Below are positions 20,036 to 64,000 of a DNA stretch of 64,000 bases, in pieces. Origin of the DNA: Golubevia sp. BC0850. Lineage: Eukaryota > Basidiomycota > Exobasidiomycetes > Golubeviales > Golubeviaceae. The DNA lies in the NCBI GenBank assembly GCA_012976225.1, contig JAAVVG010000006.1:124001-188000 (forward strand), read 5' to 3'. The first letter of the stretch is position 1. Each line of letters opens with the position of its first letter. The translations under genes and the position numbers were made by a program. The notes beneath the pieces were generated by a model. That model made no database searches. It had not been told where the DNA came from and was given only the letters and a program-made list of their open reading frames with translations.

Positions 20036-21141
20036 CTAACCCAAAAGATCAAAAAGGTCGTTGTGCTCAGAGAGCTCTGATCTTATGGAAAAGACCTGAT
20101 TTATGAAAGGAGAAGGTGAGAGTAATCAAGATCAGAGAGGGCTCATCTCCAATCTCTTCCCATCTCGTGTCGACTCACCTCAGATAAGAAGTCAGACTCT
20201 TCGCTTCTTTTTGTTTTTGGAGATTTGAACGCAGCTTCATAAATTTTGGCTAGTCCAAACCAAGTGCCACCGATTGCTGCTGTACTGAGAGCAGCAGCGG
20301 CAGCCCCTCCCACAATGTCTCCCTTGAGGCTCCGAGCGCTGGGGCTCTTCACGAGAGATTCGTCAAAAGACCTTTCTGAGAGATACTGTGTGGGGGATGC
20401 GGAAGGAAATCGAAGAGAGGGGATGTGAATTTCAATCTTTCAGGTTCTATTCCTTGTCCACTCGCTGACGCAGCTACTCTTCTGCCATCTTTGAATCGAA
20501 AGCCTTGCCTTCATCAGAGCCCCAGAAGTCTTGAGCTTCTTTCCATTGGGTTCAGTAGATTGCTGATGCTGTGGCACCAAGGGCACCGAAAGCTCCTAGT
20601 CCCATCGCAGCTTCAGCGCAAGGATGGATTCTCTTTTCAAGAGATGGAGAGACATCAACGGTGGTAGAGGATCTTTCGAAAACGGATTGAATCAGAGCAA
20701 TAGAATTAACACATTATAATCGAGCCTCTCTCCATTGACAAGCTGGCTTCCGTTAATCTGTTGACTCACCTCCTCTTCTGCCATCTTGGAAAGAAAGGCG
20801 CCTCCTTCTTCAGAGGATAGGAAGTTTTGACCTTCCTTTGTAGCCCACCAGCCATAGACACCGGCCATTCCTAGAATACCAGTGGTACCCAGCGTTCCAA
20901 GCAGCACTGGTATCTTCTGCCTGAAAGATCTTCCTTCGAGAGATACAGGAGCTTCAGGGATGTCGACGGCTCTTGCGTGCTGAGAAGAGGGAGACGATAG
21001 GGATGTTAGGGTCAGGAAAACTTCGCTAATTGCTGAAAGAAAAATCAAAAACTTTCTTCAACTCACCTCAGGAACAGGCGCAGCATTAGCAATGGAGGCT
21101 ACCAAGACCATGGAAAGTGGAAGAGATCTTAAGACGAGCAT
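20036..21141 (-). CDS. Small secreted repeat protein, DLLG-tail family, with one dead exon copy
   Basis: Proposed exons: 21141-21067, 20979-20770, 20346-20179, 20095-20036, giving 170 residues. The first 20 or so residues are a signal peptide (start MLVLRSLPLSMVLVA). Exon 2 carries SLEGRSF, a Gly-rich hydrophobic helix and NFLSSEEGGAFLSKMA. Exon 3 is a diverged copy of the same unit (ARSLKGD, then an Ala-rich helix and SEESDFLSE). The last exon ends NDLFDLLG, the tail seen in the 45.4 and 54.4 kb genes. The intron between exons 2 and 3 contains a third, broken copy (about 20690-20440). The acceptor at 20347 (GAAG) is weak but is the only one I found that keeps the frame open, so the gene may itself be decaying. 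Confidence 0.55.
20440..20690 (-). pseudogene. Decayed repeat exon inside an intron of the DLLG-family gene
   Basis: Read on the minus strand, this stretch gives SLEKR, a Gly/Ala-rich helix, then a TGA after AIY, TQWKEAQ and DFWGSDEGKAFDSKMA, with TAG where the neighbouring exon has its splice donor. It aligns with the flanking exons over about 55 residues, so it is most likely a duplicated exon that has lost its frame and donor site. Confidence 0.6.
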
Positions 21142-21964
21142 TCTGGTATGAAATTGGATGAGTTGAAGGTTTTAAATCTTACAGGAATAGATAAAAAAGA
21201 AAGAAGAAAAATTGAGGAATCAAAAGATAGACCAGCTATCAAAAGAAGAAGAAAAGAATGAAGAAGTATGAAGAAGCAGGAAATGTCATCTGACTGTGGC
21301 TTCTTATAGGATTTTGGAAGGGATGAGAAGGCGTCTCTTGGCTTATTTCGAGCATAGTACAGATCCTTTTGGACTTCTCCCTTTGAAGAACATTGGTGGA
21401 CTTGGGCAATTAGCAAGCGAGACTCATCCCTCAGTCTATGCCTTGAGTCGGCGAGCATGCGAAGGAAGGCCTGAATCAGCCGTATCTCCATTCATACAAT
21501 TGATCCGCTTATCTCGATTCTTGGATCGAAATAGTATCAAGGATTTGCCGAATAGATCTTTTGAAGGAGGCAGCTCAATAAAAGCTTGATTTCGTAGTGG
21601 GTGGGACCTGTAATTTACCCCTGGATCGGAATGCATTTGTGCAGTGATTCTACCGATGCCACCCACCTACCATATGAGAGGTTATGTACAAGATTTACCC
21701 TTTCAAAATTCAGAAGAGACCCTCCTAGACTGTATAACCTTGACGAGAGGTGGGGTCAGCAAGACTCTTCTCTTCCCTCTGCCCTGTAAGTTCTTGCCTA
21801 GTTGATTTTAACTGGATGTTCAAGGTGAGGCTGAAATGAACTTGGAAGTCGCTGGCTCCTGACCCTGATCCAGACTGCAGCACTGCAATTGCTGCAGAAA
21901 GCGGAGAGAGGTTCCTAATCTTCTACCCTCTCCTCTCCCACTCCCATCTCTTCGAAAAACAAAG
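21142..21964. other. Divergent interval between a secreted-protein gene and CAP
   Basis: The upstream regions of the minus-strand secreted protein and of the CAP gene lie here. Open frames overlap on both strands without recognisable protein content. Confidence 0.45.
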
Positions 21965-44108: not shown

Positions 44109-45441
44109 GTTTTGGGGAGTCGAATCTAGCCAGCGCTCTGTCCTTTGTTCAGTAGAAACCCTGGAGGTTTGGTTTGAATTCTCTCAGGGTTGAGTGGTTG
44201 GGGAAAGATCGCTCGTCATTGAATGTTTCTCTTCCTTTTAAGAGATAGATCGTGGAACGAGAGAAATCACGAGGTCGCACGCGGAAGTCCTTCGACACTC
44301 TATCCTTTCTGGAGTAAGCGTGGACTCCCTTGAATCCCTACTCCCTTCGCGGTTTCTCTACAACAATATGCACAACCGAAGTTCCTGTTCCCCCTCCACG
44401 CGCCCAGTACTAGCGACTAATCTCCTTGACTGAGCGTGCTTGTGTCGTCGCGGGAGGCTGGATTTCAAAACACTCTTCGACAGCTCGACGGGATCCAGCT
44501 CCAAATGTCTTATCCTTGGACGTTTTGGCGTTCTTCGTCCTTCCGGCAAGCCAAGGGAGCCTCAAATAGGATTCCCTTTACTTTTCAAAGTTCATTCCTT
44601 GCTTACTTGATTATTGCTCCTTCAGAGAAAAAACAATGAAGGGAATCTCGCAGCAGCTTAATCTTGTCGCTGAACGTTCCGGTACACAACTCTATCTATG
44701 CTTAAATCAACTTCATTGATTGAGCATGGCGGAGGGTATTTTGATTGGATTAGAGCTGAAAGACTTGGGGCTGGATCTCTCTCATTCTGCCCGAAGGGCC
44801 GGAGTGAGGGAGGGGATCAAACCAGGGATAAGGATTTAGTGATTTGTCACGTGGGTGACCATCCCCACTTTTCTGATCGAAGGACCGAATTCCTCTCCAT
44901 CGGTTCAAGCAGAACTTTGAATGTGTCAAATCCTTGGGGTACTTCTGTAAATGCGCCTTGGAATCAAGAACTATCCCGTATGCTTGCCTTGAAGATCAGT
45001 TTATGCTTATACTTCATGCTTCATGTCTCTTATCTTCCCTCTCAAAATCTGAATTGAAGGAAGGATCACGTGTCAAGAGACCTAATCTAATTTTCAGGGG
45101 AAATGTTTGAGGGATCGAGAGTGAGACGCCTGCGGAGAATTATTCCATCTTATAAGAAGAGAGCCCCCAAAAGACATTCGTTTCATTTCCCCCTTTAAGG
45201 TTCTTTCTTCCACTTCTTCTTCTTCAACTTCTTTCTTCCAGTAGGCCGGTTCCTACTGCATTTTTTCACAACTCCTTCTTTCAAATCTTTTCCAATCTTC
45301 TTTTCTTTTTCAACCTTCTTTTCTTTCTTTTCTTCTACCCATTGTTAAACGTTTCAACTTTCAAGAAGTCTATTCTGTTTTAATCCCCTCTTATTTTCGT
45401 CTCAAATCTTCAAACACCCTTCCTCCCAAATCTTCTTTAGG
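44109..45441. promoter_or_regulatory. Divergent promoter region with TATA-like element
   Basis: This 1.3-kb region separates glyoxal oxidase (-) and a small secreted protein gene (+). TATAAG at 45151 followed by about 250 nt of pyrimidine-rich sequence suits the promoter and long leader of the plus-strand gene. An open frame at 44698-45057 shows no protein-like features. Confidence 0.45.
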
Positions 45442-46744
45442 ATGAAATTCACCAATGTCGCCATCTCTCTAGCCCTGACCTCGACTTTGATTTCTGCTGC
45501 TCCGGTCCAGTTGGTGAGTCGACGAAGCCAAAGCCTTTGCCTCTCTCATTTTTCCAAATCACCTCTGACAGTATCAAAGTGATCTGGCTTTCATGAACAG
45601 GAAAGGCGCCAAGAGGTTGTCGAGAGAGCAACAAACTACGTAGCTGGTTAGTTTGCAAATGTGCTTGTCAGGCAGAAGACAAAAGGTTCTCTATTCTCAT
45701 GTGATCTATACGTCCTGTTTTCTCTTGGAAAAGGTATCGGAGCTGGGATCTTTGCTCTATCAGCCCTCTTCTCTGGACTCAAATCAAATGGATACGTCAA
45801 GGAGGCTGAGGAGCTCAGGGAACACTACGGTGACATGGTGAGTCTTCGCATTTGATCGTATTCTGGAGCCTTTCAGAGTCAATCCTGGCCCCTTCTCTGG
45901 TCTGAAGGAGCCCCCCCCCTTTTTTGCCCCTTTTCTCCCTCCTTTCTCTCTGACCAGGCTATCAAGGATACCCTCGGATCCAAGGAGGCTGCTGACGAGT
46001 TCTTAGCTTCTCCAGAAGGTCAAGAGTTCGCTTCAACGATGGCAGTGAGTCTTTGTTTTCTATCCGTCGTCGTTCTGGCGAGCTTCCAGAGACCGATCCG
46101 ACTCCTGTTATCTTCCCCTTCAAACGGCAGTCTCTCGAAGCTCGCGACATTGAAGCTCGTGGCAAAGGCGACTACGGATTTTTGACCGGTGAGTTAATGT
46201 GATGGAAGTCCCTTTTTTGTCCCCTATTTGGATGCCCTACTTACTTCGAAGCTCCCTTCCTTCTTTTCTCCTTCCCTCTGCAGCTGCTATCATCTCTGGT
46301 TTCAACCTCATCCGTAGCAGGGACCTCCACGAAGGCGACTTAGAGGCTCGTGGGAAGATTGATTATGCCTTCTTGGGTTGTAAGTCTGTTCCAAAACGTT
46401 GCCTGCTGGCTATGGTCGACGCCTCTTGGGAGTGAGCACCCGCTGACATTGACTGCCTATTCTCTTTGGACTCATGGCTCTATCTTTCATTTACAGATGG
46501 TATCATGGCCGCTTTCAATGCTGTTCGAGCCCGATCTTTGGACGAAGACAACTTCGAGAAGAGACTCAACACTCCAAATTCAATCAAGTGGGGGCTCGGA
46601 ATTATTGCGTCTGCCTTTGCTGGTGGTTCAGTGGCTAAGAATATTGCCACTCGGGATGTAGAGGACCTAGACTTGATGGACTTGATCAGAGAGGAAGTCA
46701 GAGCCGAAGCTCGTGATATTGACAACTTCGATCTTCTTGGATGA
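45442..46744 (+). CDS. Small secreted repeat protein, DLLG-tail family
   Basis: Seven exons, 45442-45513, 45601-45646, 45734-45837, 45958-46044, 46131-46188, 46284-46379, 46497-46744, give 236 residues with all phases consistent. MKFTNVAISLALTSTLISAA is the signal peptide. Modules then follow: a Gly-rich hydrophobic helix (GIGAGIFALSALFSG), EFLASPEGQEFASTMA, and two 32-residue repeats starting EARGKGDYGFLT and EARGKIDYAFLG, each with an intron after FLT/FLG and a hydrophobic helix beyond it. A degenerate unit (EKRLNTPNSIKWGLG) leads into an acidic segment (ATRDVEDLDLMDLIREE) and the tail ARDIDNFDLLG. Arg/Lys-containing motifs before each unit could be protease sites, but this is not shown. 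Family and function unknown. Confidence 0.75.
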
Positions 46745-47044
46745 ATGAAGCTACTTCTTTCTCCACTACTCCCTTGTATTAATTGTAGTTCATTTTCCTT
46801 TGAAATCTCGACGTTCTGAGAAGTTTCTGGGATGCCTTTCATGAGATGACTTTCATCCCTGAAAAGAGGTCATCCCCACCTCAGCATCCCGGGGATGACG
46901 TAACAACATCGCTTAATTAACAAGAGCTAAACTAGTCCGGTGGTGGTGGCTCTCCTCTCTTTTTTCTTCAAGATCTTCCATCTCTTCTGAACGTTACCAC
47001 CTAAACCTTCTAACCTAACTCTCACAAATCTATTCACTAATCAG

Positions 47045-47840
47045 ATGCCTTCGATTCTTTCTAGCAACATGATCAGATCGACGCTGGACGTTGTAGATCT
47101 CAAGTTCGGAAAGAGGCAGGCGCTGGGTGGAATTACCCAGGCGGCCGCAGATGGAGGTCAGGCTGCTGCGTGAGTAACTCTTAGAACATGGGGAATTGCG
47201 ATTGGGGAGAATGTCAAGAAGAAGAGCGGATCAGAAGTTGGGAAGGTCGAGATGGATGCGGGGCAGGCGTGGAGAGGACAGTGTGACATCTTCCGACCTG
47301 GATGAGAGGATTGATCCTTCTTGAGATTGAATCTTCACGATTCAAATCGTTCATAAAGACGTTTTCAGACGGAGAAATCAAGAATTTGGCGCTCCTGGAG
47401 GAACGGGTTACAGACCACCTTCTTCCAGACACCTTTCAATCGGCTGCTAACCTCTCCACCCCTCCCATCTTCTTCCACCTTCTCCCTTACATCCCTGTTT
47501 CGATTTTCTCAGAGGTCACGTCAAACATGCCACTAAAGGTCTTTCACAGATGCAGCTCTTAGGAATCGCCATAGCAGGTACGTCCTCATCAATAGTCTGG
47601 GCTGGCTTCATCTCCTCAGTTTCCCTAACTCCCTCTTCTTCTCATTTCCTCTTTTCCCTTCACTCTTAAACAGTTGCCGTCATAGTAGTTCTACTAGGAT
47701 TTGGAAGTTGGTGGGCATGCTCCTACAGAAGAAACAAGCGCAAAGCTCAACAACAAGGCAGAAACTTAGAAGAAAGTGAAAGGTTAAAAAGTGAAAGTGC
47801 TTCTTTCAGATCTAATGATAGTAATTGGCAACGATACTAG
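47045..47840 (+). CDS. Small single-pass membrane protein, unrecognised
   Basis: Three exons, 47045-47169, 47513-47577, 47674-47840, give 118 residues. The N-terminal half is hydrophilic (DVVDLKFGKRQALGGITQAA). One transmembrane helix, LLGIAIAVAVIVVLLGFGSW, is assembled across the last junction, followed by CSYRRNKRKAQQQ and a Ser/Glu-rich tail ending SNDSNWQRY. The positive residues just after the helix suggest a cytosolic C-terminus and an outside N-terminus, although no cleavable signal is present. The 343-nt first intron is long. No family recognised. Confidence 0.6.
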
Positions 47841-48806
47841 ATTGATCTTTCAACCTTGGAAGCTCATTCAAATCTTTTGGAAACGTTTCATGTTTTACCA
47901 AAAAACAGGCCTCCACTTCTTTTCTCGGTTCTTCAAAAAATGGACTCTGATCTCCTAGTAACTTGAATGTTTCTGGAACTTTATATCATATCAAATCATC
48001 GGGAGGTATATAAAACTCAAAGCATACAATCTAACTATTACCTTCAGAACCGAATAGTCTCTTCTAGTCTTCTATCTTCTATCCTTATACCCCTCAACCC
48101 CTCAACATCTCTTTCTATAGTCTCCCCTATTCTCTGCCCCTTTCTACAGCTTCCTCAACTTTCCCTCCAATTGCAATCTCTTCAACTCCAACAAGTTAAA
48201 ATTCTACTTCAGTCGGAGGACTCTGTTTTTCTACCTCTCTCAAAAAGGAAGAGTCTCAAGCACGGTCTTCTTCACCTTCTTTTGGATTATTTCTGTGTCT
48301 ATCTATTCCGCTATTCTTGCATTTCTTGTTGTCTCCAATATCTCGGAACTCTTCTGTCCTTGCACTTTCCCTTATCATTTTTCGGACGCAGGTCTTCTTC
48401 TCGAAAGTGTTTTTTCTCCCCCTTTCGTAGTCTTTCCCCAGATGTATCAATTTATCTCTCTTTTCCTTTCTCTGTCTCTTTGATTGTTGTTGTTTATATC
48501 CCAAACATACCTCGCCTTTCTCTTGAATTCAGAATCTTTTTTGCCTTGGACTCGCTTTGGCTTGATGAGCTTTCTGATTCTATGTTACGTCTCTACTCTC
48601 TTTCTCTCTCGCGTATCTCGATGGAAAGGTCGGATTGACAATGGTGAAAATTGTCGGTGCTAGAAGTCTCCGAAAGTTCCAGGAACATTTCTTGGCTTTG
48701 GCAGGAGATTGTCCTTCCTTGCTTCCTTGCTTCCTTGCTTCCTTGCTTCCTTCCATCCTTCTTCTCTCTTTCACCTCCTTCCCTACTCTTATTCTACTAA
48801 TCCGCG
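47841..48806. promoter_or_regulatory. Pyrimidine-rich leader region with TATA box
   Basis: TATATAAAA at 48007-48015 is followed by nearly 800 nt of strongly C/T-rich plus-strand sequence up to the next start codon. This looks like a promoter with a very long pyrimidine-rich leader, as basidiomycete genes often have. The open frame 47967-48638 in it is Ser/Leu/Phe low complexity and is not taken as a gene. Confidence 0.45.
48713..48754 (+). repeat. Microsatellite of 8-mer CCTTGCTT
   Basis: About four and a half tandem copies of CCTTGCTT lie in the leader, 50-90 nt before the ATG at 48807. Confidence 0.85.
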
Positions 48807-50955
48807 ATGAAACCATCTAAACAGAAGCAGAAAGAAAGGATTTCATTAGAAGAAGTTGATGATTCCATTCCAATGCTTAGTGAAGCATCCTCCTCAACCT
48901 CTTCTAATCATCAAAATCATAAGCGGAATCAGTTAGATCACACTTACTCTCCAGTTTCCCAATCCAAGAAGAAATCTTTAATTTCAAAGTATTGTTCAAA
49001 TCTCACATCATCATCTTCAAGTTCATCAAAATTGAATTGTATTAAAGCTAAACATTCAGATGATTCAAGTTGGGATCCATCAATTTTGAATCCAGCTTCA
49101 GCCAGAAGATCAAAATCTTTTAATCAATTAGGTTTGCAGAAAGTTAAATCTTCTTTTCATTCTGATGTTGGAAAATCAGGAAAATCTCATTTAAGCTTAG
49201 GTGTAATTCAACCTTCAAGACAATCCTTACAGAAAGAAAGAATCAATCATAATTTCAAGTTAACTGGTTTAGAGAAACCTCTGGCTTCAACTGATTCAGA
49301 TGGAATCGATTCAATGACTGAAAGAGGTAAAAGATGGTATGATGCTCAATTAGGTGAAGGTAGACCTTCAAACAATTACATTTCAAATGATAATGACAAT
49401 TCAGATCTACCTTACTCTTCTGCTTATCCTTCTTCTCAAAGAGGTCTTCATTTACCTTCAACTTATCAACACCCTTTATCCAAAGTCAAACCTCTAAAAT
49501 CAGATTCGGGTTATTCAAAGACGATATTGGATGATGATCCTTTATTGAGCGTTCCTTCTTGGAATCGAAGACCTAGAACTGAGGCTTCCTTGTTGAGGGA
49601 AAGAGCAAGAGATCTGACTGGAAGGTGGACTTGGAGATGGACTCCTGGTGAAGGCTGGAAAGTTGGCAGATCTAAAGATTGGGGGATTTATAATAGTGAG
49701 GAGGGAATTGGGACTGCTATGGCGGCTTTGTTACCCCCTAGTCAACCTGCTGGCTTGTCGTGAGTAGATCCTTCACAAAGCGGGTCGGGACAAGGTAGTC
49801 GGACACAGATAGATCATTTCTTTGAATCTACATATGTTGCTTTGAATGCGTGGACTTCTTGTCGGGGCCTCTTCGAATATTCCTGCCAACTGATCTCCTC
49901 TCCTCTACCCTCTACCCTCCAGTTTCCCACCCATCATCCCACATCAATCCAATTCAATCTTTCTTTTCCTTTTATTCTCAGCTTTACTAGTCATGTTAAT
50001 CCTCATGATTATCCTAGAAGACGTCCTAGGATACTCAATTCCATCTCCAATCCCAATCCGACTCCTTTCAAGATTAACTCGAAGGCTTCCCTTACCGATC
50101 TCAGTTCAAAGAAGAGCCATGGCGATAGGTCAATGGGCTGAAGAAATGAAGAAAGTAGGAGCTGAAGATGATTGGAGAAGTTTTTTAGGAAGAGGGTCTA
50201 ATTCTTCAGGAAAGGGGATTACTAGATCCGGAGTTGAGAGAGAATTAACAAGAGGTAGTTTGAGAAATAGAAACGCTGTTAACAAATCTACGAGAGGATC
50301 TGAAGAAATCGCTTTGTTAGGAAGGAATGAAATGAATGGACGTTTCGACGGATCCGATTCAGGAGAAGGCAGTTCTTCAAAAGCTTACTCAAATGCTTTG
50401 AGAGATTTATATTCAAAAGCGATTTCTCCAATCACTTTAACTTCAACTTCTCAAGACGATCCGAATGAACTTTCCTCTTCTTCAACCTCTAAAGGAAAGA
50501 AAAAAGCGAAATCAAGTTTAGATGAAACTTTACCCTCTACGATTTCAAGATCTTCAACTCCACCTACTAGACCTATAAGTCCTTCGACTGCTTCTCTACT
50601 TAGAGCTCATGCTCATTCTCCTCCTATCAGAAGTCCTCTTGGTTTAGGTAGATCTATGCCAAATGGTGAAGTTTTTAATGGAGAATCTGGAAGTCTAAGC
50701 GTAGATATGAAAGAGATGGATCCTTTTGATTCTTATGCTTCGGCTAGTTCTAGTAATTCTAGAAGACCAAGTCATCCTCCTTCTACTTTAGCAACTTCTT
50801 GGATACCAAATCATGGTACTAGTCCTTCAACTTCTAAAAGAACGGTTTATGAGGTCAATCAAACTCCAGGGGCATCTCCTCCTCAAAGTCCTAAGAGTAA
50901 TGACGAGGATAATAGAGCGAGAACGGTTGGATCGGTTTTAGTTCCTGTTGGATGA
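48807..50955 (+). CDS. Unrecognised single-TM protein with Trp-rich motif
   Basis: Two exons, 48807-49759 and 49923-50955, give 661 residues. The acceptor at 49922 is the one that keeps the second frame open and completes a membrane helix. The N-terminal 250 residues are Ser/Asn/Lys-rich and probably disordered. A tight motif follows (LTGRWTWRWTPGEGWKVGRS, then KDWGIYNSEEG). Next comes one long hydrophobic helix (SIFLFLLFSALLVMLILMII) and RLLSRLTRRLPLP, then IGQWAEEMKKVGAEDDWRSF and another long Ser/Pro-rich disordered tail. Codons are AT-rich, like the DEAD-box gene. No signal peptide. Localisation and function unknown. Confidence 0.65.
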
Positions 50956-52225
50956 GAAAGGAAGTTAAATTGCTTTCGAACCGAGCAAATTCCATCTAGT
51001 CGAAAATTCCAGCAACTTCCACTCTTCTTTCATACCCAGGTCCCATCTAGTCTTACTTCTTCCACCATCTATCTTCCATCTTCAAAGCTATCATCATTTC
51101 AAGATTCTTTCGATCTCATCTAAACCTCTACTTCATTCGTCTTCAAGCCCATTACTCCATTCTTACTTCCCTATTTTCTTCACAAGTCCCGTTTCATCGC
51201 GCATCTCAACATCATCCAGTATACATCACGATCTAGCTCAAAATCATCAGAACAACTTTATTTTCACCGGCTATGAAAACCAAGCCCTATTTGATCTCTT
51301 TCTTCTCGTCAAAAAGTCTTGCCTTGCTTCAGGTTTCTCTGTCTTTTCGTTTTGCCCTTCGGTTTCATTCATTCATTCTTCACTCTTTGACCTTTCTTTT
51401 ATCACTTCTTTGAAAGTTGGGACCAAACAATCTAATGAACTCCATTCTATCTGTGTTTCATAAACCTCGATCTGAAAGTTGTTGAGGCAGATTCTGCAAA
51501 GGGGTCGAGAAGAGGAGACTAGCTAAGAAGCTTTGCTTGAATCAGAGTCAAAGCGTTTGAAAAAGAGGGCTGGTGATTCTAACTTAGCCAAATACTTTGT
51601 TGGGACTCATTCAGATCCCCACACTCTGTGAATTTACAGTTCTAGCAAAAAGTCGAGAGAACGCAATGAAGTCTGCTGTAGAAAGAATTGAGAAAGCCTT
51701 TCCTATTTCACTAGATCAGTTTATATTTCGAAAGCTCCCTTCTATTGCTTAGTCCTTCGTCCTATAATTTCAAGGCGTTTGTGTTACACGAAATTGATCG
51801 TCTTCTTTTCTGCTGATGTTCGTGCGAATTGAGTAAGACAATCAATCCGTCCCCCCCCCCCTTGACTTTGACTCTCATCTAAGAAAGGGGTCAAGTCACG
51901 ATCACGAAAAATAGTCTCCTCTCTCTAGATCATTCACTTCAGATCAAAACTTCCTCTGACATCTCTTCCTACTCGAAGCTAGCAACTTTGCAGAGACTGT
52001 TGACAGTCTGAGTCTAGAATGTCTTCCACTTCAAAAGTTCCTCTTTGTTAGGCAGGCACTACTTTCTCAGGAAAACGAACAGATTTCAGCGATCAAAAGT
52101 CTTTCTATTGCAAAGTCCCCTTTGATGAAAAGGTTGAAAATACACATGTGAAGTGAAAAGAGGAGAGGTTCGACTAGTCATGAAAGGATAGACCAAAGAC
52201 GTCGGTGGATATGCGGTGAATACCT
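50956..52225. other. Gene-poor interval
   Basis: 1.27 kb of AT-leaning, T/C-rich sequence with an 11-base C run at 51851-51861. No coding frame with splice support on either strand. It would hold the 3' flanks of the two convergent genes. Confidence 0.5.
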
Positions 52226-52547
52226 CTACTCTTCTCTGTTCTCGAAAACAGGGGCGAATAAGTCGCGAGACTCTAGCAAGGAGGCGATGAACGAGTCCTC
52301 TTCATCGTCAGAGACATCTCTTCTGCCGTTCTGGATTCAAGAAGCGGAAAAAAGGGGAGAGTCAGTGAGGCTGTCAGAGCTGCGTTGTTCGATGCGCGAC
52401 GAACTACAAAGCTCACCTTCTTGTTGTATCCGCTGAGAAGCCACTTGATAACAGCAGCGGCAGGCTTACTGATAGGCTTGTCAACACGAGACTTGCCGTT
52501 GATGATGATGCGACGATCCAATTCAGAAGCCTGAACACGGGAAGCGG
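52226..52547 (-). repeat. Downstream copy of the tandem exon-intron duplication
   Basis: Copy B of the unit described at 52617-52950. Its second exon is about 9 nt shorter inside and carries the stop codon, where copy A has a splice donor. Confidence 0.85.
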
Positions 52548-53137
52548 GTAGCAAAAAGAACCGGTCAGATGAGAGCTTGGGTACTAAATTGCCATGCCTT
52601 CTCGATCTCTACTCACCTCGTCGTCTCTCTCTTCGAACAAAGAAGCGAACAGATCATCGTCGACATCGCGAGATTCGAGCAAAGAGGCGATGAACGCGTC
52701 CTCTTCAACGTCAGAGACATCTCTTCTGCCGTTCTGGATTCAAGAAGTGGAAAAAAGGGGAGAGTCAGTGAGGCTGTCAGAGCTGCGTTGTTCGATGCGC
52801 GACGAACTGCAAAGCTCACCTTCTTGTTGTATCCGCTGAGAAGCCACTTAATAACAGCAGCGGCAGGCTTACTGATAGGCTTGTCAACACGAGATTTGCC
52901 GTTGATGATGATGCGACGATCCAATTCAGAAGCCTGAACACGGGAAGCGGGAAGCAAAGGAGGATAAGGATAAGCAAGGGTAGATGCAGCATTCCATATT
53001 CTCCATTTATTGCTCACTTCCAATGGTGCGTCTCTTGTTTGAGATTCCAAGGAAAGACCTCTGGAATCTGGCAAAGGTTGGGCCATTAAAGCAGCCACGA
53101 AGGCCAGAGGAAGGGCTAGTTTGATGATGACTTGCAT
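52226..53137 (-). CDS. Small secreted protein built by a recent exon-pair duplication
   Basis: Five exons, 53137-53018, 52933-52820, 52733-52617, 52530-52417, 52330-52226, give 189 residues. Every exon is a multiple of three and all junctions are phase 0. Exon 1 is a signal peptide plus short linker (MQVIIKLALPLAFVAALMAQ). Exons 2 and 4 are near-identical (ASELDRRIIINGKSRV, then a helix AAAVIKWLLSGYNKK). Exons 3 and 5 are diverging copies starting NGRRDVSD, acidic and rich in RD (ESRDVDDDLFASLFEERDDE in exon 3; ESRDLFAPVFENREE in exon 5). It lacks the DLLG ending but has the same style of hydrophobic helix and acidic RD tail as the neighbouring small secreted proteins. Function unknown. Confidence 0.8.
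52617..52950 (-). repeat. Upstream copy of a tandem exon-intron duplication
   Basis: Copy A contains the end of an intron, a 114-nt exon, an 86-nt intron and a 117-nt exon. It matches copy B (52226-52547) at a constant offset of 403 nt, with only a few base differences from the shared intron end through the second intron; divergence and a short deletion appear in the last 60 nt. Confidence 0.85.
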
Positions 53138-53723
53138 TGTAATTTTAAAACTTTGAAGCTGAAGCTGGGTTAGAAAGAAATAAGTTAAAAGTGAAGTAAA
53201 TGTGGATAGTCCGGCTATCTGAAGAAGTAGAAGTAGTAAAAAAAGGAAGAAGAAAAGAAAGTGGCGAGGTGCTGAGAAGAAAGAAGTTTCAACAATCGAG
53301 CTCAACTTAAATACCTTTTGGCTCTTAGTGAGAGAAAGGAACAAGACTGTGGTCTGTAAGAAAAATCTAATCAGACAAATCAACGTACAAGGATCCAGAA
53401 GCCCAAGACTCCGAACTTGGGAGCATGGTGTGTATGAGAAGGGACGAGCGAGCGACAATTATAGTGAAGCTCTGAATGGAGAAAAGGAGTCCTTGAGTTC
53501 TATCCAAAGAGATAAGCAAAGGTAATTGCAGAAAAGGATTCTTCATAGAGCTTTGGGAGACAGTGTCACGCCGCCCACCCCTTTCTCGAGTTGCAGCCTT
53601 TCTCTCTTTTTCACCTTTTGAAGTAGAATAGAAGCATACACAACGTTCTCATTTAGGTGCGCTTCTTGAGATTTGAGACCGGAGGCCGAGGCCGGAGATA
53701 TCAGAGATGTCAGAGACATCATA

Positions 53724-53746
53724 CCCCCGGGGGGGGGGGGGGGGGG
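53724..53746 (+). repeat. C5G18 homopolymer tract
   Basis: Five C followed directly by eighteen G, the longest homopolymer in the window, in a promoter-side intergenic region. Confidence 0.9.
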
Positions 53747-53765
53747 TTGAGCAAGACTGAAATCA

Positions 53766-53789
53766 GATGTGAGATGTGAGATGTGAGAC
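53766..53789 (+). repeat. GATGTGA heptamer repeat
   Basis: Three tandem copies of the 7-mer GATGTGA/AGATGTG next to the poly-G tract. Confidence 0.8.
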
Positions 53790-54360
53790 GGAGTATAGAG
53801 CAATTGATCTCTCTCCGATCTGAAATGATATAAAATTCTAGAGAGACAAAATGGGGTATAGAGCAACTGAGGGCGCCCTTTGTCAAAATTTTGAAGGGAC
53901 GGTCTATCTAGGATATCCAGGGTTGCGCCGCAGTCGAAGATGTCCTATAAAACCTTCTTTAAACATGTGCGTATGCCACAGTGCAAAAGTAGTTGATTGC
54001 TATGGCGATCTTAAGGCTTGAGTGCGGACGCTTCAGTTGAAATTCTAAAGTCGCAGTACTCACTCGCAGGTCCCCCTCGATGGGCATTTCCCAATTCCAG
54101 TGCGCCGACAGCTGACGGAGCTTCGGAATCTTCTCGAGGACCTTCAAGCTTCCAGTCATAAAGGAGAACATTCGAAGCCCCCAAAATCTTACAAATAGCG
54201 CCTTCTTCGTGACGTTCTTCTCCTCCCCCAACAACCTTTCGTTCACTTTCGTTTCTCACAACCTCTTCTTTCTTCTTCTTCTTCGTAGCTGGCCTTCGAA
54301 CCTTTCAACGTCACTTTCATTTGTTTCAAACCTTCTCAAGAGTAGAATTCTTTAAGCACA

Positions 54361-54847
54361 ATGCAATTGACTCATTTCGTTCTACCTTTGGCTTTAGCTG
54401 CAACTCTTGCAAGCGCCGCTATTATTCCAACTCGAGCAACTTCAGAATTATCTGGAAGATCTCAATCTTTACACCAAGAAATTGTCAAATTTGACGATCT
54501 CGTTAGTCTTCTAGTTAGAGATGATGTAGATCTCGCCGCAAGAGGACCAGGAGCTCAATACGAGGGCGTCACTCCCAAAGTTGCGGTCGGCATAGCTTTG
54601 GGCATGGTGCGGACCTTTGGACATATTTTGAAGAAAAAGAGTGAGTGAAAGACTGAGAGTAAGCTTGGTTTGTCTGGTTCGACTTTCGCTTTTTCTGACA
54701 TCGACTCTCGACTCTCTCTTTACCCTCCTAGTCAAGGGGAGAAACTTCGACGAGCTTGAAGAGCAATTTCAATTGTTTGTCAGAGAGCTGGAGGACGAAG
54801 TCTCAACTCCTCCTATCGCTCGTGACTTCGATTTGTTAGGATTCTAG
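54361..54847 (+). CDS. Small secreted protein, DLLG-tail family
   Basis: Two exons, 54361-54640 and 54732-54847, give 131 residues. The first 20 residues are a signal peptide (MQLTHFVLPLALAATLASAA). SGRSQSLHQE and RDDVDLAARG follow, then a hydrophobic helix (KVAVGIALGMVRTFGHIL) next to KKK, then an acidic helix (NFDELEEQFQLFVRELEDE) and the terminal ARDFDLLGF. The RD plus DLLG ending and the Gly-containing helix match the 45.4 kb and 20 kb proteins. There is only one copy of the unit and no internal repeat. Function unknown. Confidence 0.78.
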
Positions 54848-57428: not shown

Positions 57429-60400
57429 ATGATCAACTTTCCTTTGACCTACCTCAAATTTCCTTTGCCTCCACCTTCGTTCCCTTCCCTCCTCGCAGTC
57501 AATTTCTTCTTCCGCTTTCTGGGTTCTATTCTTCAACGCTCGTACGGCTCCCGAGAACACCTCACACAAAGAGGGAGATCAAGCGAAGCTAGTGCATCAA
57601 TTACAAGCAACTACAGACCTGGAATGCCAATTGGATACTTCGCCGCTAGAGAAACTCCTTACGAGAAAAAATGATTTTCGAAGAAAATTGGGAACTGCTG
57701 CTTGTTCGTGGCTCCATTGATCATCATCCCAGCTTTGGTGATTACCCTTGTTCCGGTTCTCCTAGCTGTCGCGAGTGAGTTCCATTAGAGCAAAGATGTA
57801 ACTTCTGAGTGGAGAGGTGAGAAGAAGGTTAGCAGAGATGAGCGAGTCCTGACTTCTAACATGAGAATCCCCTTCCCCTTTTTCTTTGTTCCAACAGATC
57901 ACGCTTTGCATACCGCAGGTACGTGAAAGTGAATCGTCACTCTCCCTTGGGGTGAGGGGCGTTGAGTTTTCGTTCTCGTGATACCTATCTATCTCTGACC
58001 TACCTTTCAATGCCCTCAGTTCTTCATGTCCATTCCTCCAACATCGCTTCTGTCACCAACAGTTCATTCCCTATCAGCATTGAAGGGCAGGTGAGTTCGA
58101 CCCTGAGGAGAGAGAGGAGAGGGCAAGGACAGGAGAGCAACTCCAACCGCACAACTTTGAGCCTCACATTCCTCGCTTTTGAAGCTTTCTTGTACCACTA
58201 ACCATTTATTGTAGCCTCTTGATGTCAAGTTAGCTAAGGTCTTTTTCGTGGGGCTTTCGGATCCTGACTTCTTTCCTCGTCTTTTCTCCATTCTCGACTT
58301 TTCGTTTCAACTCTATTTCCCAGACACTCCTCTTGGAAGAATCTTGTTAAATGGAATCAAGTTCGACGTGGGAACTGGATTGAAGGGACTTCAAGGATTG
58401 AATCACTACGCAACCATTATTAATGATGTAGATGCTCTAGGAGGAACTAGTGATGCAATCTCGTTAGTAGTAGCTACTACTGTCATTAACCCGTCTAACA
58501 TCAACATCACAACCGGTGATGCCTTCTTCCTTCTTTAGGTGAGTCGAGCATCGAGCCTCTTCGATGGTCCATCGGTCATCTACTTCCACACTCACCCTCC
58601 CCCTCTCTCTCTCAGAATGAAGTTGTCCTTGGAAATATTACTCTTCCAAATCTGAACCTGGTGATTGGTCGTAACGATATCAATGCTACATCTTTCTTCG
58701 ACCCTAACAGAGACCCCAAAGGTTTGGTGACTCTCAACAGATTCATCTCGGGACAAGACACTAAGGTCAACATCTCTGGATTCGCCGGCTCTTCCAGAAC
58801 CGAGTCATTAGTAGGAACTTTCGAGAACGTGAGATTGTGAGTTGCTTTGCTTTCCCTTTTGTTCGTATCGACCCTCTTTCCTGTGCTGACTTCTCTCTTC
58901 TACCTCTTTTCAATTCACAGAAACGCTACTTTGCCTGGTCTGCAGTCTCGTATTGCTCAATTCGCAAACTTGACCATCTAAGATTCAACAGCAATTGCAG
59001 ACAACATCGCTGGATCGAACGTAGCTGTCAACAACCCCTTCACTTCAGATCTTCAACTCCTTAGAATCGCTTCCAAAGTCTCTGCAGCCGGAGTCTTAAT
59101 CGCAGACATTCACACACCTCTTAACTTCATGGCTAACGGAAACGCAGTGACAACTACTCCAAACATTCCTCTGGCTCTCAACCTCTTCCCACCCGACCTC
59201 TTTGCCATCGTAAGAGCCTTCGTGATCAAGTCAGGTCAAGATCTAGCTCAATTGGACGGAGTAGTTCAACTCGGAGGATACACCTACACTCCAATCACTA
59301 GCGCTGACGGAGCAATCGCTGTCAAGCGTGAAGAATCCTTCGACTTCGAGGAGGGAAACGAAGGAGCTCAGCTCTTGATGGGAGTCGGATCTAGCCCAGG
59401 AGCTCTAGCTGCTGCAGCTGACGAACATCACTCCAACGTAGCTCTCAGAAACGTGGTCCAAAAGGGGAACCTATACACCGGATTCGATCTACCTTCTTAC
59501 GTCGCTAGTGCCTTCTCCGTAGCAGAAGCAGATTTGGTCATCACTGCCGACGCTGTCATCGGAGAATCCGGAACTACTCTCACTTTCTCTCAAACCAACG
59601 TTCCCTTGGGAACTGACGAGACTCTCTTCAAGTTGCTTCCACCTCTGGCTGCTCTGATCGTCCAGAAGGTGGTCGATCAATCGATCCTCAACATCGACAG
59701 AGTAACTCTTCTAGATCTTAAACCAAGTTCCTTCAAGGCAGCACTGCAGGGAACACTCACAAATGCAGGTGAGTTTCTGGCATTCAGTCGGAAAGGACGG
59801 AGCAGGTGGGGCCTTCGATAGATATCGGCTCTGACGAACTGCTTCTTTTCCCTTGTTTCTTTCCTATCTTTTTCTCAGGTCCTTTCGATGGAGTAGTATC
59901 CTTCCTCAAGGGTCTCACCATCTTCTGGGAAGGAGAAGAACTCGCCCAGGCTGCTTTCCCAAATATCACTCTAGTCGGAGACGCCGGAGCTGCCATCAAC
60001 GTCGAGCTCGAGGCTCAAGTCAGCGATGTCGACTATCTGACCGAATTCACCAAGTACCTTCTCAACAATCCTCCTTTCGTCTGGAACATCAGAGGCGAAG
60101 ATATCGAAGTCGCAGCTCTAGGAATCGTCGTACCAGGGGTCAGTCTCTCCAAGGACGTGCAGCTAACTGGATTCGACGGTCTCAAGGGAATGGTCATCAT
60201 CAACTCTTTCGACATTCCATCCAACGAACCGGCCGGAGGCCTCGCTTTGACTGCAGTCTCTACCATCAATAATCCTTCTCAAGTCGGTGTCCAACTCTCA
60301 TCCTTCGTTACCTCGATCGAAAAGGATGGAACTGTGATCGGTCCAGCAGCTGCCAGTGAGCAATTCATCCTTCAAGCTCTTTCCACTACTACTCTACCTC

Positions 60401-63400
60401 TAGCCGGTCGCATTCAAGAACAATCTGGAGCCGGACTAGACGTTCTCTCTGAGATCTTCGCCAACTTCGTCCACAACAAGAAGACCGACGTAACCGTGAA
60501 TGGTGCCTACGCTGGACCTTCAGATGTTACGTGGTTGAACGAAGGAATCAAGATCCTTTCGATTCTAGTTTCTCTCCCTAGCCAGGACTTCCAGGTCATC
60601 TGTCTCGTCTCTATCAACCAGCTTTCTCTCTTCTTCACCGAGGACACTGCTTACAACCCTCCAGCATCCAGTAATTCGACCACTGCAAATTTCTTTTTGC
60701 CCTTCGGATTCCCTCTAGATATCACTCAGACTGGTGGAGACTTCATTGCGAACTACCAAGGAGAGGGTGAGTGTCTGGATGCAATTTTGAAGGCTGCGTT
60801 TTCAGCTGCGTCGATTCCAGCCGTTTCCCAATTCTACTTTCTATCCCCTTTGCCTCTCTCTCAGACACCGCTCTTCTAGCTATTCCTCAAGGTGCATCTC
60901 AGACAGACGTTCAGAATCGTGTCTTAACTCTGATGTTCAACAACGTTCCGTTCGCTGTCAATGACGGAGCTCACTTCAAGTTCAGTCAATTCTTAGATGA
61001 TACCGCTGCCTCAGATCAAGTCACCTTCCATCTTCACGGAACTGCTAGTGCACTTGCCAAGACCTCCGCTGGAGCTGTCACAATCTCAGATAGTGAGTTT
61101 TCAGCGATTTCAGCTCGACCGTTTCATTCCATCTTTTTCTGGTCTTTGACTGACCTCTGACCTCTGATTTTCCACCTTCTCTCAGTCCCTTTCGATCTCG
61201 ATACCAACCTACTTGGTCTGGTCTCCAGAATATGAACGCCAAGCCAGCAATCGTTAGCGATCTCGATGTAGTTCACGGATACCCTGATTACTTGGAAATC
61301 ACTATCAACGTAGCGCTCTTCAACCCTTCAGACTTGACCATTGGTACTAGTACCGTCAACTTCGATGTCTTGTTTGAGGACAACCTCATCGGAGAAGCTG
61401 TCATTACGGACTTGGTCTTTGTGAGCTACGCTGAAGATCCATCAAGCTGTCTCGCTCCTTCTTTCGCATTCGACTGACTTCTTGCCTCTCTTTCCCTTCG
61501 AAAACCCGCTTTCAAGGTGCCTGGAGAGAACATCGTTCCAACTGCTCTCCAATATATGCCTAAAGGATCAGCCAATGTGGCTTCTGGACAGCGGTCGTTA
61601 GAGAATTACGTTCAAAACTTCACGTCAACGGCAGTAGTTCATGGAACAGGAGATACCACTCCAATCGCATCTCTCAAGCAAGCTCTTAGCGGTATCACTC
61701 TAGAGACAGAAATTCCAGCTCTCGGAGAGCTGATAATCACTCGTGCTAGCTTGGTTCTTCCTACCGATATCGCTCAGAGAGGTGTAGGTCTAGTAACGTG
61801 AGTACACCACTTCTCTCCATTCGAAACATTCTTTTCTGACGTCTTTCCCGCCTCTCTATTCTCTTTCATCTCTCTCTCCCCCTCTCTTCCTCTCCTACTC
61901 TGGCCAATATCCAATCAGCGTCGACGTTGCCAATCCTTCCACCGCTTCTCTCAACATCATCAACATCGAGGATACGACCGCTACCTATGCTGGAATCGTG
62001 CTAGCTACGATCAACGCTGACTTCTCAGACGATCCAATCCGTGCCCCTGGACATCAAACTACGACTTCTCAACAGATCGAAGCTCAGATCAATTCGATCC
62101 GAAGCAGCTCATTCAGTTCATCTTCGCAGCAGCTCAGAACACAGGAACCGACCTCGGACCGCTTCCTCCATCCTTCCAGCAAATCTTGGATCTAGACTCT
62201 ACTGAGACCACTGTTGTTCCAATTCCAGATCCTGTCTCACCTCCTTGCAACAGTGGAAGAACCTTCGATAGCGAGTTTTCGAAATCCTCTTCGTATTCGA
62301 CTTTTTCCTCCCTTTTTCCCGTTCGTCGAATCTGACTCTCAATTCCCAATTTCTCCTCTTACAGCTCTCGGTGCTATCTTGAACTTGCTCAAGGGTCTTG
62401 CCACGAGACTAGACGTCCAACCTACAGTTCTCATCGACGATTATCAGACTGATCTAGACTTCCTACAGAACCCAGTTCCAACAGACACTGATGAGACTGC
62501 ACTGTATCTGATCGGACCTGCTGGAGCTCCTCTCATTCAACTCATCGTAGACAACGCTGTTCTTAAGGTTGAAATCGCCAACGCCACTAGCTTGACCGAT
62601 GAAGGCTTCGACGTTGCTCTTTCAGGGGCTCTTCCTACCGACGCTCCAGCAGACCAGCAGACGCTTACATCGAATTCCCGTGAGTGAGATCTCCCCTCTC
62701 TCCTCTGGAACTATCCATCACTCCATTTTCTTTCGAAAGAATTTCATCTTTTGGAGAGAACGAGCCAAGCATGCTTGCCAGCTCTGTCGTCTCTCCCTTC
62801 CTGACCCTTCTCTCTTCCTCGCTCCTCTCTCCTCGCCAGATCGGGACTGAAGGTCACCTGGATCGATAATGGAAACGAAAGGGACATCGCCACAGTGCTC
62901 CTCCCACCAAATTGCTCGGCTGCTGGAATCGGAGTGCCTGATTTGGTCACTTCTGGTCATTTGACGATTGTGAGCATCCCTTCTTTCTCATTTCGAGCGG
63001 ACACTTGTTTCTCTTTCCCTTTACCCTCTTTTAACTCACGATAGTTTCTCTCCTTCCTTTGGTTCTCACTCTCCACAGACTCACTTGGGAGCCTTCACAG
63101 ACTTTGCCGAGTACCTTCTCCACAACCCATCCTTTCGATTGGAGGCTTCACTCTGACGACGTAACTGTCCGTGCTCTCGGGATTAGCTTCGGAAATGCCA
63201 TTCTCTCTAAACGGACTACTCTCGACGCTTTCAACAACTTTCCAGGTGAGTGGAAAGCACTATGGTATCCGACTTCTCCCAATCGACTGACTCTGTCTCT
63301 GTTTTCTGTCTTCCTCTGTTTCTCTTCGCCACTGCTCCAAATCGTTTCTTTTTCTGTTAACAATCTATTTTTCTTCTTTCTAGGTGTTACCATTGCCAGC

Positions 63401-64000
63401 TTCGACATTCCAAGTCAAGATACTGAAGCCGTAGACTTGAACTTCGTCGCCGACGTTTCGATTCCATCTCCAGCTTCTCTTGGAATTCAGCTCGACACTG
63501 CCAACTTCAAGATCTACTGCGAAGGGACTTACATCGGACCTGCTCAAGCTACCAACTTGTTCATAGCAGCAAAGGCTCTTAACACTCCTGTTTTCAACGG
63601 ACAAGTCACTCACAAGTCAGGAAAGGACTTAGAAATGGCTGGGGTCCTTTTCTCGAACTATCTCGCCGGATAAAACTCAAGTCTGCAGGTCATTGGAGAC
63701 TCAGTCATCACCGAAGCCAATGGAAACCGGCCAGTTGGATGGCTGACGACAGCTTTCAGGACGCTCACTTTGGACGTTATTCAGCCAGGTAAGAGGCATT
63801 TGCCAGAAAGTTGTTTGCAGTTCTCTTCTTCTCTTTTTGATAGACTTTCTTTCAGAACGGTGCTGATAGTTTCCTTTCTTGTTGAACCTCCTTACGCCTT
63901 CTCTTTTCATTTCTAGGTCGCATCTACCAGATCATCTACTCTATCACTCTTTCAGATCTCACCGTCACCATCTTGGATCCAGATAGCTCGTATGACTTAA
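57429..64000 (+). pseudogene. Decayed DUF3712-type tandem-domain gene, runs off the window
   Basis: A large multi-exon gene with a cytosolic N-terminus, one membrane anchor (LIIIPALVITLVPVLLAVA) and then long beta-rich repeated modules. These read like DUF3712/LEA-like domains (FDGLKGMVIINSFDIPSNEP, PLGRILLNGIKFDVG, VTIASFDIPSQD). Typical extracellular or vacuolar-surface proteins of this kind have unknown function. In-frame stops interrupt otherwise good coding sequence at 57672 (TGA), 58536 (TAG), 58979 (TAA) and 63671 (TAA). Frame breaks include a 5-nt duplication at 61215-61224, a one-base loss near 62096, an 8-nt duplication at 62647-62662 and a one-base gain near 63138. One intron may use a GC donor (about 62268). 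Long stretches between lesions remain clean, so loss looks fairly recent. The true start is uncertain. Confidence 0.75.

Follow-up and report, generated by a model that had tools for sequence, protein, structure and literature searches.

What is encoded by the four small genes dispersed along a 64,000-nucleotide stretch of the Golubevia sp. BC0850 genome (hereafter the window), and what unites them? The host is an Ustilaginomycotina fungus, and we consider it probable that the genes belong to a secreted peptide-precursor family that is cut by kexin and carries a Vts1-type hairpin in its leaders. On this reading, the genes at 45, 54 and 20 kb (W45, W54 and W20) would be family members and the gene at 52 kb (W52) a member or a close ally.

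Window genes and their paralogs

DNA was read for 35 family loci, and about nine more are present as search matches only. The initial annotation missed how large the family is, the Lys-Arg sites that the paralogs carry and the upstream hairpins. The 28 gene models analyzed here come from our own gene finder, whose earlier in-frame-intron and exon errors were partly cured by retraining; those of L062, L063, L074, L079 and L080 are uncertain. L066 was excluded because an ATG start was not found, and C17:107k lies inside the fetched DNA (L075) and outside the 28 models. In most models, the hydrophobic N terminus ends in A-A-P or a similar sequence, as judged by eye.

The 45 kb gene (45442–46744, plus strand) is modeled with seven exons at 45442–45513, 45601–45646, 45734–45837, 45958–46044, 46131–46188, 46284–46379 and 46497–46744. 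As the initial annotation had proposed, a single frame runs from a signal-peptide-like start through hydrophobic modules to the FDLLG tail (...RDIDNFDLLG), and the last exon has matches of 52–69% elsewhere in the genome. A hand-spliced version, used for example in the Pfam scan, differs from the gene-finder model by one extra Gly at the exon 2/3 junction. The 54 kb gene (54361–54847, plus strand; exons 54361–54640 and 54732–54847) encodes a basic amphipathic stretch, then an acidic stretch, and its two-exon model terminates in the predicted FDLLGF tail (...ARDFDLLGF). Paralogs of this gene lie on C3 and C1.

The five-exon, minus-strand model of the 52 kb gene (52226–53137; exons 53018–53137, 52820–52933, 52617–52733, 52417–52530 and 52226–52330) agrees with the earlier description of a protein of the same plan that lacks the FDLLG tail. 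One exon pair is duplicated in tandem as a near-exact copy, and basic and acidic pieces are bounded by RR, with no KR present. The gene, of which L071 is a paralog, is tied to the family through its putative signal peptide, plan and hairpin and not through the SKLA module.

The 20 kb gene (20036–21141, minus strand) begins at 21067–21141 and continues through a module at 20770–20979, a third segment broken as a module by an in-frame TGA at 20552, and a further module at 20179–20385; the FDLLG-coding tail ends at 20036. In the gene finder, the later module is accessible only when the TGA-bearing exon is skipped, and even then the splice site for the tail is not chosen. Because of the in-frame stop, the tail is insecurely attached, and the claim that this gene ends in FDLLG is not confirmed: the tail DNA is present, and its splicing onto the gene is unsupported. 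Either the gene has decayed or its TGA-bearing exon is skipped.

The other shared features pointed out earlier extend beyond the window. The module common to the 45 and 20 kb genes (EFLASPEGQEFASTMA and NFLSSEEGGAFLSKMA, respectively) aligns with modules of the form F-x-SK-L/M-A in the paralogs, and the 28 models contain 95 RD motifs as compared with 25.4 in shuffles (maximum 40 in 300 shuffles). The tail, too, recurs beyond chance, with 22 genome matches to a DNA pattern for FDLLG plus TRR versus eight for the reversed pattern. Fifteen of these 22 encode FDLLG followed by a stop, the remaining seven having an FDF or TGG ending, and 13 of the 15 lie within loci read as family members. The other two are C7:671.7k, which has a leader hairpin upstream, and C61:447.7k.

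None of five members scanned against Pfam scored above the cut-off (best E 0.067), and a comparison of one member with PDB sequences gave no match at E 1. Protein searches, each scoring approximately 8000 word-sharing candidates, returned four homologs, all metagenomic, three of them ~98% identical to genes of this genome. No named smut protein appeared at E 0.01 in a database that includes such proteins, in a search that needs shared five-residue words. The initial remark that no described family has this plan thus stands for the sequence family within these searches and falls for the plan itself, which is known from KEX2-processed repeat proteins (KEPs) and from Rep1 and Hum3. Its view of the family as fast-evolving is likewise half right, in that modules have been duplicated, converted and lost between genes, whereas dN/dS is mostly low across six paralog pairs: 0.13 for L059/L060 (spliced CDS), 0.23–0.36 for four pairs and 0.77 for one pair of 125 codons.

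Lys-Arg sites and predicted peptide processing

Lys-Arg (KR) pairs are in strong excess in the 28 models, with 64 observed versus 18.9 expected (s.d. 4.0, maximum 33 in 500 shuffles), and the excess persists without four near-duplicate models (50 versus 15.3, maximum 27). The other dibasic pairs show no such excess (RR, 23 versus 18.4; KK, 13 versus 21.7; RK, 6 versus 18.7). Glu precedes KR at 46 of the 64 sites and Leu follows it at 35, and 11 of the 28 models contain three to nine KR. The genome also encodes a kexin, whose P_proprotein domain lies on C5 (E 2.3e-16). The KR excess and the kexin gene together support the earlier suggestion of a secreted, processed-peptide family, the processing itself being what we infer from them.

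Cuts after KR and RR would yield at least four fragments from 13 of the 28 models, W52 alone among the window genes, and fewer from the other 15. At least three similar fragments, the formal repeat rule, are found in seven of the 28 (L059, L060, L071, L072, L077, L078 and L081) and in none of the four window genes, by a similarity test that is our own and differs from the published KEP pipeline. The four window genes combined are also without an excess of KR (1 versus 2.5 expected), which together with the repeat result makes them the least classical of the family.

Might the proteins instead stay uncut, as structural proteins or effectors of the ordinary secreted kind, with the KR sites as remnants of pro-regions? 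Six of the 28 models lack KR, both KR and RR are absent from L080, L083, W54 and the truncated model W20, and W45 has a single KR, placed before its last module, and a single RR. We nevertheless consider uncut proteins rather unlikely, as the excess of KR is strong, specific to the order of the two residues and located at module borders of the other members, with up to nine KR per precursor.

In a kexin-processed family, the signal peptide would be removed first, and kexin would then cut the multi-KR precursors after (Glu-)Lys-Arg. The products would be differing peptides, mostly of 30–65 residues, each predicted to combine a hydrophobic stretch rich in Gly/Ala with an acidic RD spacer and, in many cases, an amphipathic segment of the form SKEAxDFLxxxEGQxFVSKLA. 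Together with the DDFDLLG tail, which is likewise acidic, this spacer probably holds the oily peptides soluble and dormant before cleavage. The freed peptides would most likely act at surfaces or membranes, in the manner of the Rep1 repellents. By analogy with the Candida Ece1 peptide, they could be membrane-permeabilizing agents directed at competitors rather than surface coats, a real possibility although not the one we favor. Basic amphipathic pieces are followed by acidic ones in the 52 and 54 kb types (W52, L068, L070 and L071), and the hydrophobic stretches show small-xxx-small spacing (478 motifs in fragments versus 385 expected, s.d. 14.5). Many other fragments, however, are net acidic, with a mean charge of −0.3 in the N half and −3.2 in the C half; the N half is the less acidic in 52 of 73 fragments, the C half in 15, and the two are equal in six.

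For one exon with eight alignment rows, AlphaFold predicts helices, with low confidence (mean pLDDT 48.9). Two other candidates were weighed and set aside. Transmembrane proteins do not fit, as just eight of the 73 fragments reach our own limit for TM-like hydrophobicity. For UstYa-dependent cyclization, as in dikaritin RiPPs of the ustiloxin type, PF11807 (UstYa/DUF3328) was unmatched in the genome; the control genomes were equally silent.

A hairpin in the 5′ leaders

In 22 of 31 leaders, against an expectation of 1.45, there is a short hairpin whose loop reads CNGG. The loops of these 22 follow the Smaug recognition element rule CNGGN(0–3), one of them (L074, which differs in sequence) probably by chance. 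At 45 kb, the hairpin (45239–45258, plus strand) has a 7-bp stem and a CCGGTT loop ~0.2 kb 5′ of the ATG, with a predicted pairing probability of 0.98. GATAG/CTATC stems enclose the loops CCGGA at 52 kb (53205–53219, minus strand) and CTGGT at 20 kb (21226–21240, minus strand). The 54 kb element (54285–54297, plus strand) has the loop CTGGC, a U-U mismatch that breaks the stem and a predicted pairing probability of 0.22.

Three of the 31 leaders (L062, L065 and L081) lack a candidate element. Among the other 28, the loop is five bases long in 20 and ranges from four to six, and the first base 3′ of it is C in 27. The stem is weak or missing in about one-third of leaders, with at most 2 bp in six of the 28 elements (W54, L066, L068, L074, L075 and L079) and 3 bp in one more. 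Predicted pairing is modest, with a median of 0.28 and values of at least 0.5 in 11 of 28; of 120 AGCNGG sites in the window, two reach 0.5, one being the 52 kb leader. No RNA in Rfam matched at gathering scores within the window.

Genome-wide, perfect copies of the hairpin occur at 48 unique sites as compared with one for a reversed control. Among 34 sites that were assessed, the hairpin is followed in 29 by a family locus or by a signal-peptide-like ORF, as read directly at the gene start in 23 cases. Hairpins also stand upstream of unrelated secreted genes, for example L096, L104 and L105. At five of 14 sampled sites (L090, L093, L100, L102 and L103), no signal-peptide-like ORF was present.

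The hairpin in its commonest form is close to a palindrome, and a perfect palindrome is present at eight of the 48 sites, as would suit a promoter DNA element bound by a transcription factor and unrelated to Vts1. The position of the hairpin relative to the transcription start is, moreover, predicted only. Several observations nonetheless make such a promoter palindrome unlikely. Pentaloops, which are incapable of being palindromic, occur on the sense strand only (14 versus 0 antisense), and loop length varies, yet the base 3′ of the loop is nearly constant. A TATA-like match lies 77–129 nt upstream of the element in 20 of 31 leaders (150 nt in L078 with its second element). The optimum for Smaug reported in PMC4053848, a five-base loop preceded by G and the sequence CUGG, also speaks against a palindrome; in our 28 elements, the G is fixed by their selection by the 5′ side.

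Stem covariation and a candidate role for Vts1

An alignment of 19 of the 28 elements, all pentaloops, with the four- and six-base loops omitted and L066 left out because its stretch is identical to that of W54, gave a covariation score of 0.213 versus 0.100 in shuffles, with none of 500 shuffles as high. Its compensatory changes comprise U-A to C-G twice, G-C to A-U three times and G-C to U-A once, all confined to two stem positions. Two of five covariation measures were no better than shuffles, with 70 of 500 for pairs altered on both sides and 388 of 500 for additional pair types. In a permutation, 110 bases were paired versus a mean of 91.2 (0 of 2000) after the automatic picks for L063 and L078 had been swapped by hand for better-pairing sites; the unedited picks gave 108 versus 90.8 (0 of 2000).

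Shared ancestry of the leaders may imitate such constraint, and the hairpin could be functionless, inherited with a copied promoter and signal-peptide cassette. Many members do have similar signal peptides and leaders, and their exons have been duplicated and converted. The compensatory stem changes and the hairpins ahead of the unrelated secreted genes oppose such a passenger, which we judge improbable.

The leader hairpin fits the recognition element of Smaug/Vts1, and a Vts1 SAM domain is encoded in the genome (E 1.7e-16 to yeast Vts1). All seven residues that PMC9893680 lists as RNA contacts are identical in that ungapped alignment, by our mapping. The mRNAs of most members would thus carry one short CNGG-loop hairpin in the 5′ leader; since the same hairpin seems to stand at the start of most family messages, we suggest a common switch for the entire set. 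A Vts1 (Smaug-type) SAM protein would probably bind the hairpins, so that the messages are held back or degraded jointly until needed. Our confidence is evenly divided on whether a Vts1-read 5′-leader hairpin is the common switch that unites the ~40 precursors of the family with secreted genes unrelated to them in one post-transcriptional regulon. If so, the hairpin alone could locate peptide genes that lack mutual sequence homology, and altering the hairpin or removing the one protein that controls the set would reveal a joint function beyond the reach of single knockouts. Smaug/Vts1 elements would then sit in 5′ leaders of secreted genes, for which we found no report in the literature searched.

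Comparison with known systems

The comparisons below rest on the portions of the cited reports that were available. The leader hairpin resembles the Smaug/Vts1 element in its CNGG(N) loop, short stem and prevalence of five-base loops (PMC2573929, PMC4053848, PMC9893680), and the SAM domain has the contact residues (PMC9893680). The elements described there lie mainly in coding sequence or the 3′ UTR, whereas here one element occurs per 5′ leader across a set of secreted-peptide genes.

Ece1 of Candida albicans, the source of candidalysin, is likewise a precursor that kexin cuts into non-identical peptides, of which one is membrane-active (PMC7329392). Many fragments of the present family are, in contrast, acidic, and Ece1 is set beside it by description and not by homology. 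With the KEPs the family shares an apparent secretion signal and several KR-bounded cores; most published KEP types are restricted to a single genus, with a mean of 5.3 KEPs per basidiomycete strain (PMC6339444, PMC7329392, PMC9769878). Unlike in KEPs, the cores inside one precursor are mostly dissimilar here, and only seven of 28 models fall under the repeat rule.

Arrays of Kex2-cut amphipathic peptides are known from KEPs and from Rep1 and Hum3 of Ustilago maydis. In Rep1, Kex2 sites separate imperfect amphipathic repeats of 34–55 residues, and the released peptides have 35–53 (PMC4617103). The present family shares with Rep1 the subphylum and the Kex2-type sites between amphipathic units but differs in its ~40 dispersed loci, its mixture of module types within a precursor, its many small exons and its FDLLG tail. 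We would class it with the KEX2-processed repeat proteins, as a heterogeneous and lineage-restricted variant whose mode of action is probably closest to that of Ustilago Rep1.

Family size and evolution

Pieces of the window genes, followed by pieces of their paralogs, were searched against the 25.8 Mb genome (64 contigs), in which the window spans C61:124001–188000; family matches were spread over many contigs. The family of secreted-looking precursors now comprises 35 loci whose DNA was read (28 gene models together with L066, L086–L089, L101 and C12:371k) and about nine more known from search matches alone. The loci differ in closeness, and some first surfaced at weak E-values, among them L083 at 1.9 and L071 at 0.29. 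A DNA pattern for the FDLLG tail and stop has 22 matches in the genome, versus 8 for the reversed control, and 15 of the 22 actually encode FDLLG followed by a stop.

For the genes at 45442–46744 and 54361–54847 (both plus strand), the coordinates and tails proposed in the initial annotation are correct. Its 52 kb gene (52226–53137) lies on the minus strand with a duplicated exon pair in our gene model; this gene and L071 are tied to the family by signal peptide, plan and leader hairpin, and not by the SKLA module. The 20 kb gene (20036–21141, minus strand), listed there as a further tailed member, has a reading frame interrupted by a TGA at 20552. The RD motif of the initial annotation is real, occurring 95 times in the 28 models against 25.4 expected, and in many modules it opens an acidic spacer ahead of the next KR. 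Adjoining long reading frames at 58982–63670 (plus strand) of the window look as if they encode related extracellular proteins.

The spliced coding sequences of L059 and L060 give a dN of 0.066 and a dS of 0.508, and the dN/dS ratios of the other five of six paralog pairs are 0.23–0.36 in four and 0.77 in one; these ratios support most of the gene models. Between L064 (C55:1055k) and L065 (C55:1082k), identity is 100% in exons 5–6 and introns 4–6 and 96% in exon 7, but 61–87% in the remaining exons. Such an identical stretch amid diverged neighbours is likely to reflect recent gene conversion. In L059, the gene end is tandemly duplicated inside one precursor gene (C61:722.7k and 723.1k, two matches 378 bases apart), and L066 (C3:548k), closely paralogous to the 54 kb gene, has TTG at the start-codon position. 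L087 (C44:659k) and L089 (C61:386k) end in a DDFDLLG tail but have modules that do not resemble SKLA, such as EFMAALEAISARDFD of L087; these two loci form a further branch of the family.

Distribution in protein databases

One single-protein search and one seven-member profile search against 5.8 billion proteins (ncbi, nr, uniref and eukprot entries included) returned four homologs at E 0.01, all metagenomic, with about 8000 word-sharing candidates scored per search. Three of them (P0001, P0002 and P0123) share about 98% identity with genes of this genome, and P0124, a further family member, reaches 57% with its closest counterpart here, across 67 residues. Given the number of candidates scored and the broken exons of metagenome predictions, these searches give only a rough indication of lineage restriction. 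When a DEAD-box helicase encoded in the window was compared with the same proteins, every named entry in the top 24 (P0003–P0026) came from Ustilaginomycotina, at 48–55% identity, and the top match, at 56%, carries no name. This places the host in the smut subphylum, with no near relative among the named entries of that database. P0034, a helicase attributed to the fern Adiantum nelumboides, sits at 45% amid basidiomycete matches and is possibly fungal contamination in a plant assembly.

A hairpin in the leaders of family genes

Upstream of family genes we observed a recurrent sequence, GTAGC(C/T)GG..CTAC. With a hairpin defined as four or more Watson–Crick pairs closing a CNGG loop of 4–7 bases, 22 of 31 leaders contain one, compared with 1.45 expected from the window density and 3 in reversed leaders; one of the 22, in L074, differs in sequence from the rest. 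When only the 5′ side served to pick candidates (AG preceding CNGG; 28 of 31 leaders) and the 3′ sides were re-paired among genes, the true partners formed 110 paired bases, whereas 2000 permutations averaged 91.2 and did not exceed 103. Without the two sites chosen by hand, the values are 108 and 90.8, and 0 of 2000 permutations reach the former. In an alignment of 19 pentaloop rows, none of 500 shuffles reached the observed covariation score (0.213 vs 0.100), paired cells (89.5% vs 83.1%) or both-side-changed cells (6 vs 1.3); both-side-changed pairs were reached in 70 of 500 shuffles and further pair types in 388, neither standing out. Sliding the partner along the sequence lowers pairing to 47.4% at most, and the pentaloops are oriented 14 sense to 0 antisense.

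Both strands of the window hold 20 such hairpins, three of them being the leader hairpins of the genes at 45, 52 and 20 kb; among the other 17, only one (2455, minus strand) has AG before the loop. The stem in the 54 kb gene leader is mismatched. The leaders of L068, L069 and L070 carry a second AGCTGG right after a TATA-like box (ATAAATAGCTGG), about 70–90 nt before the leader element.

Genome-wide, GTAGCYGGN(0-1)CTAC occurs 56 times, versus once for the reversed pattern, and corresponds to 48 unique sites because eight palindromes are counted twice. Our survey covers 34 of these: 20 at family loci and 14 others sampled. The family sites comprise 14 in leaders of genes read directly, two upstream of L087 and L089, where just the later gene part was read, and four placed by search-match position alone (C7:672k, C8:51k, C8:65k and C12:538k). 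Nine of the 14 others lie ahead of an ATG whose reading frame begins like a signal peptide, at 54–106 nt in L091, L092, L094, L095, L096, L097, L101 and L105 and at 233 nt in L104, in every case with no intervening ATG; the remaining five have no such start downstream. L096 (C51:10345 onward) encodes another sort of KEX2-processed repeat protein (KEP), whose KRS-bounded repeats follow the pattern DLLDLDVxLxKLLNLN, and L105 (C55:274k) an ORF that looks secreted and repeats a YIPV motif. With an unrelated repeat in L096 and another motif in L105, the hairpin that both share extends beyond a single coding family.

Vts1 as a candidate reader

The hairpin agrees with the Smaug recognition element (SRE) in its loop and loop preferences, given as CNGGN(0-1) in PMC2573929 and as CNGGN(0-3), with five-base loops and a G just ahead of the loop being best, in PMC4053848. 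The SAM_2 domain has four matches in the genome. That on contig C2 (L107) is Vts1-like, matching yeast Vts1 chains at E 1.7e-16 to 4.1e-16 and Smaug at 4.2e-6. All seven SRE-binding residues listed in PMC9893680 are identical in L107, with positions mapped by us in an ungapped alignment with Vts1. Cryptococcus neoformans Vts1 is described in PMC5017699 as a candidate calcineurin target that goes to P-bodies upon heat shift; that a similar signal might act here is speculation. Among the papers listed on Vts1 or Smaug in fungi, pathogens and smuts, few of them from subscription journals, no title or abstract opening points to elements of this kind in the leaders of secreted fungal genes.

Putative processing at KR sites and comparison with known repeat precursors

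The 28 models contain 64 KR dipeptides, compared with 18.9 in shuffles, and RR, KK and RK show no excess. The KR sites are located at module borders, with Glu before 46 and Leu after 35 of the 64, and are unevenly spread: 11 models have three to nine, 22 have at least one and six have none. The four window genes combined show no excess (one KR vs 2.5 expected), and we grade our best explanation slightly lower for this reason. A kexin P domain is encoded on contig C5. Predicted cutting at KR and RR, keeping pieces of 20 residues or more, gives 73 fragments with a median length of 54, of which 52 have the less acidic half at the N terminus and 15 at the C terminus, the two halves being equal in 6.

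We propose that family genes are transcribed and that Vts1, via the leader hairpin, would hold back or degrade their mRNAs. Upon a signal, the mRNAs would be translated and the precursors enter the secretory path, where kexin would cut them at KR; the resulting cocktail of different oily peptides may coat surfaces or enter membranes. The acidic, conserved tail would fit a sorting or solubility role. Rep1 peptides of U. maydis coat surfaces, according to PMC4617103. Under repeat rules patterned on the published KEP pipeline of PMC6339444, at least four fragments arise in 13 of the 28 models, and at least three of the fragments are similar in 7 of those 13. By these counts the family is KEP-like, with unusually mixed cores, and many members, the window genes among them, fall outside the formal KEP rule.
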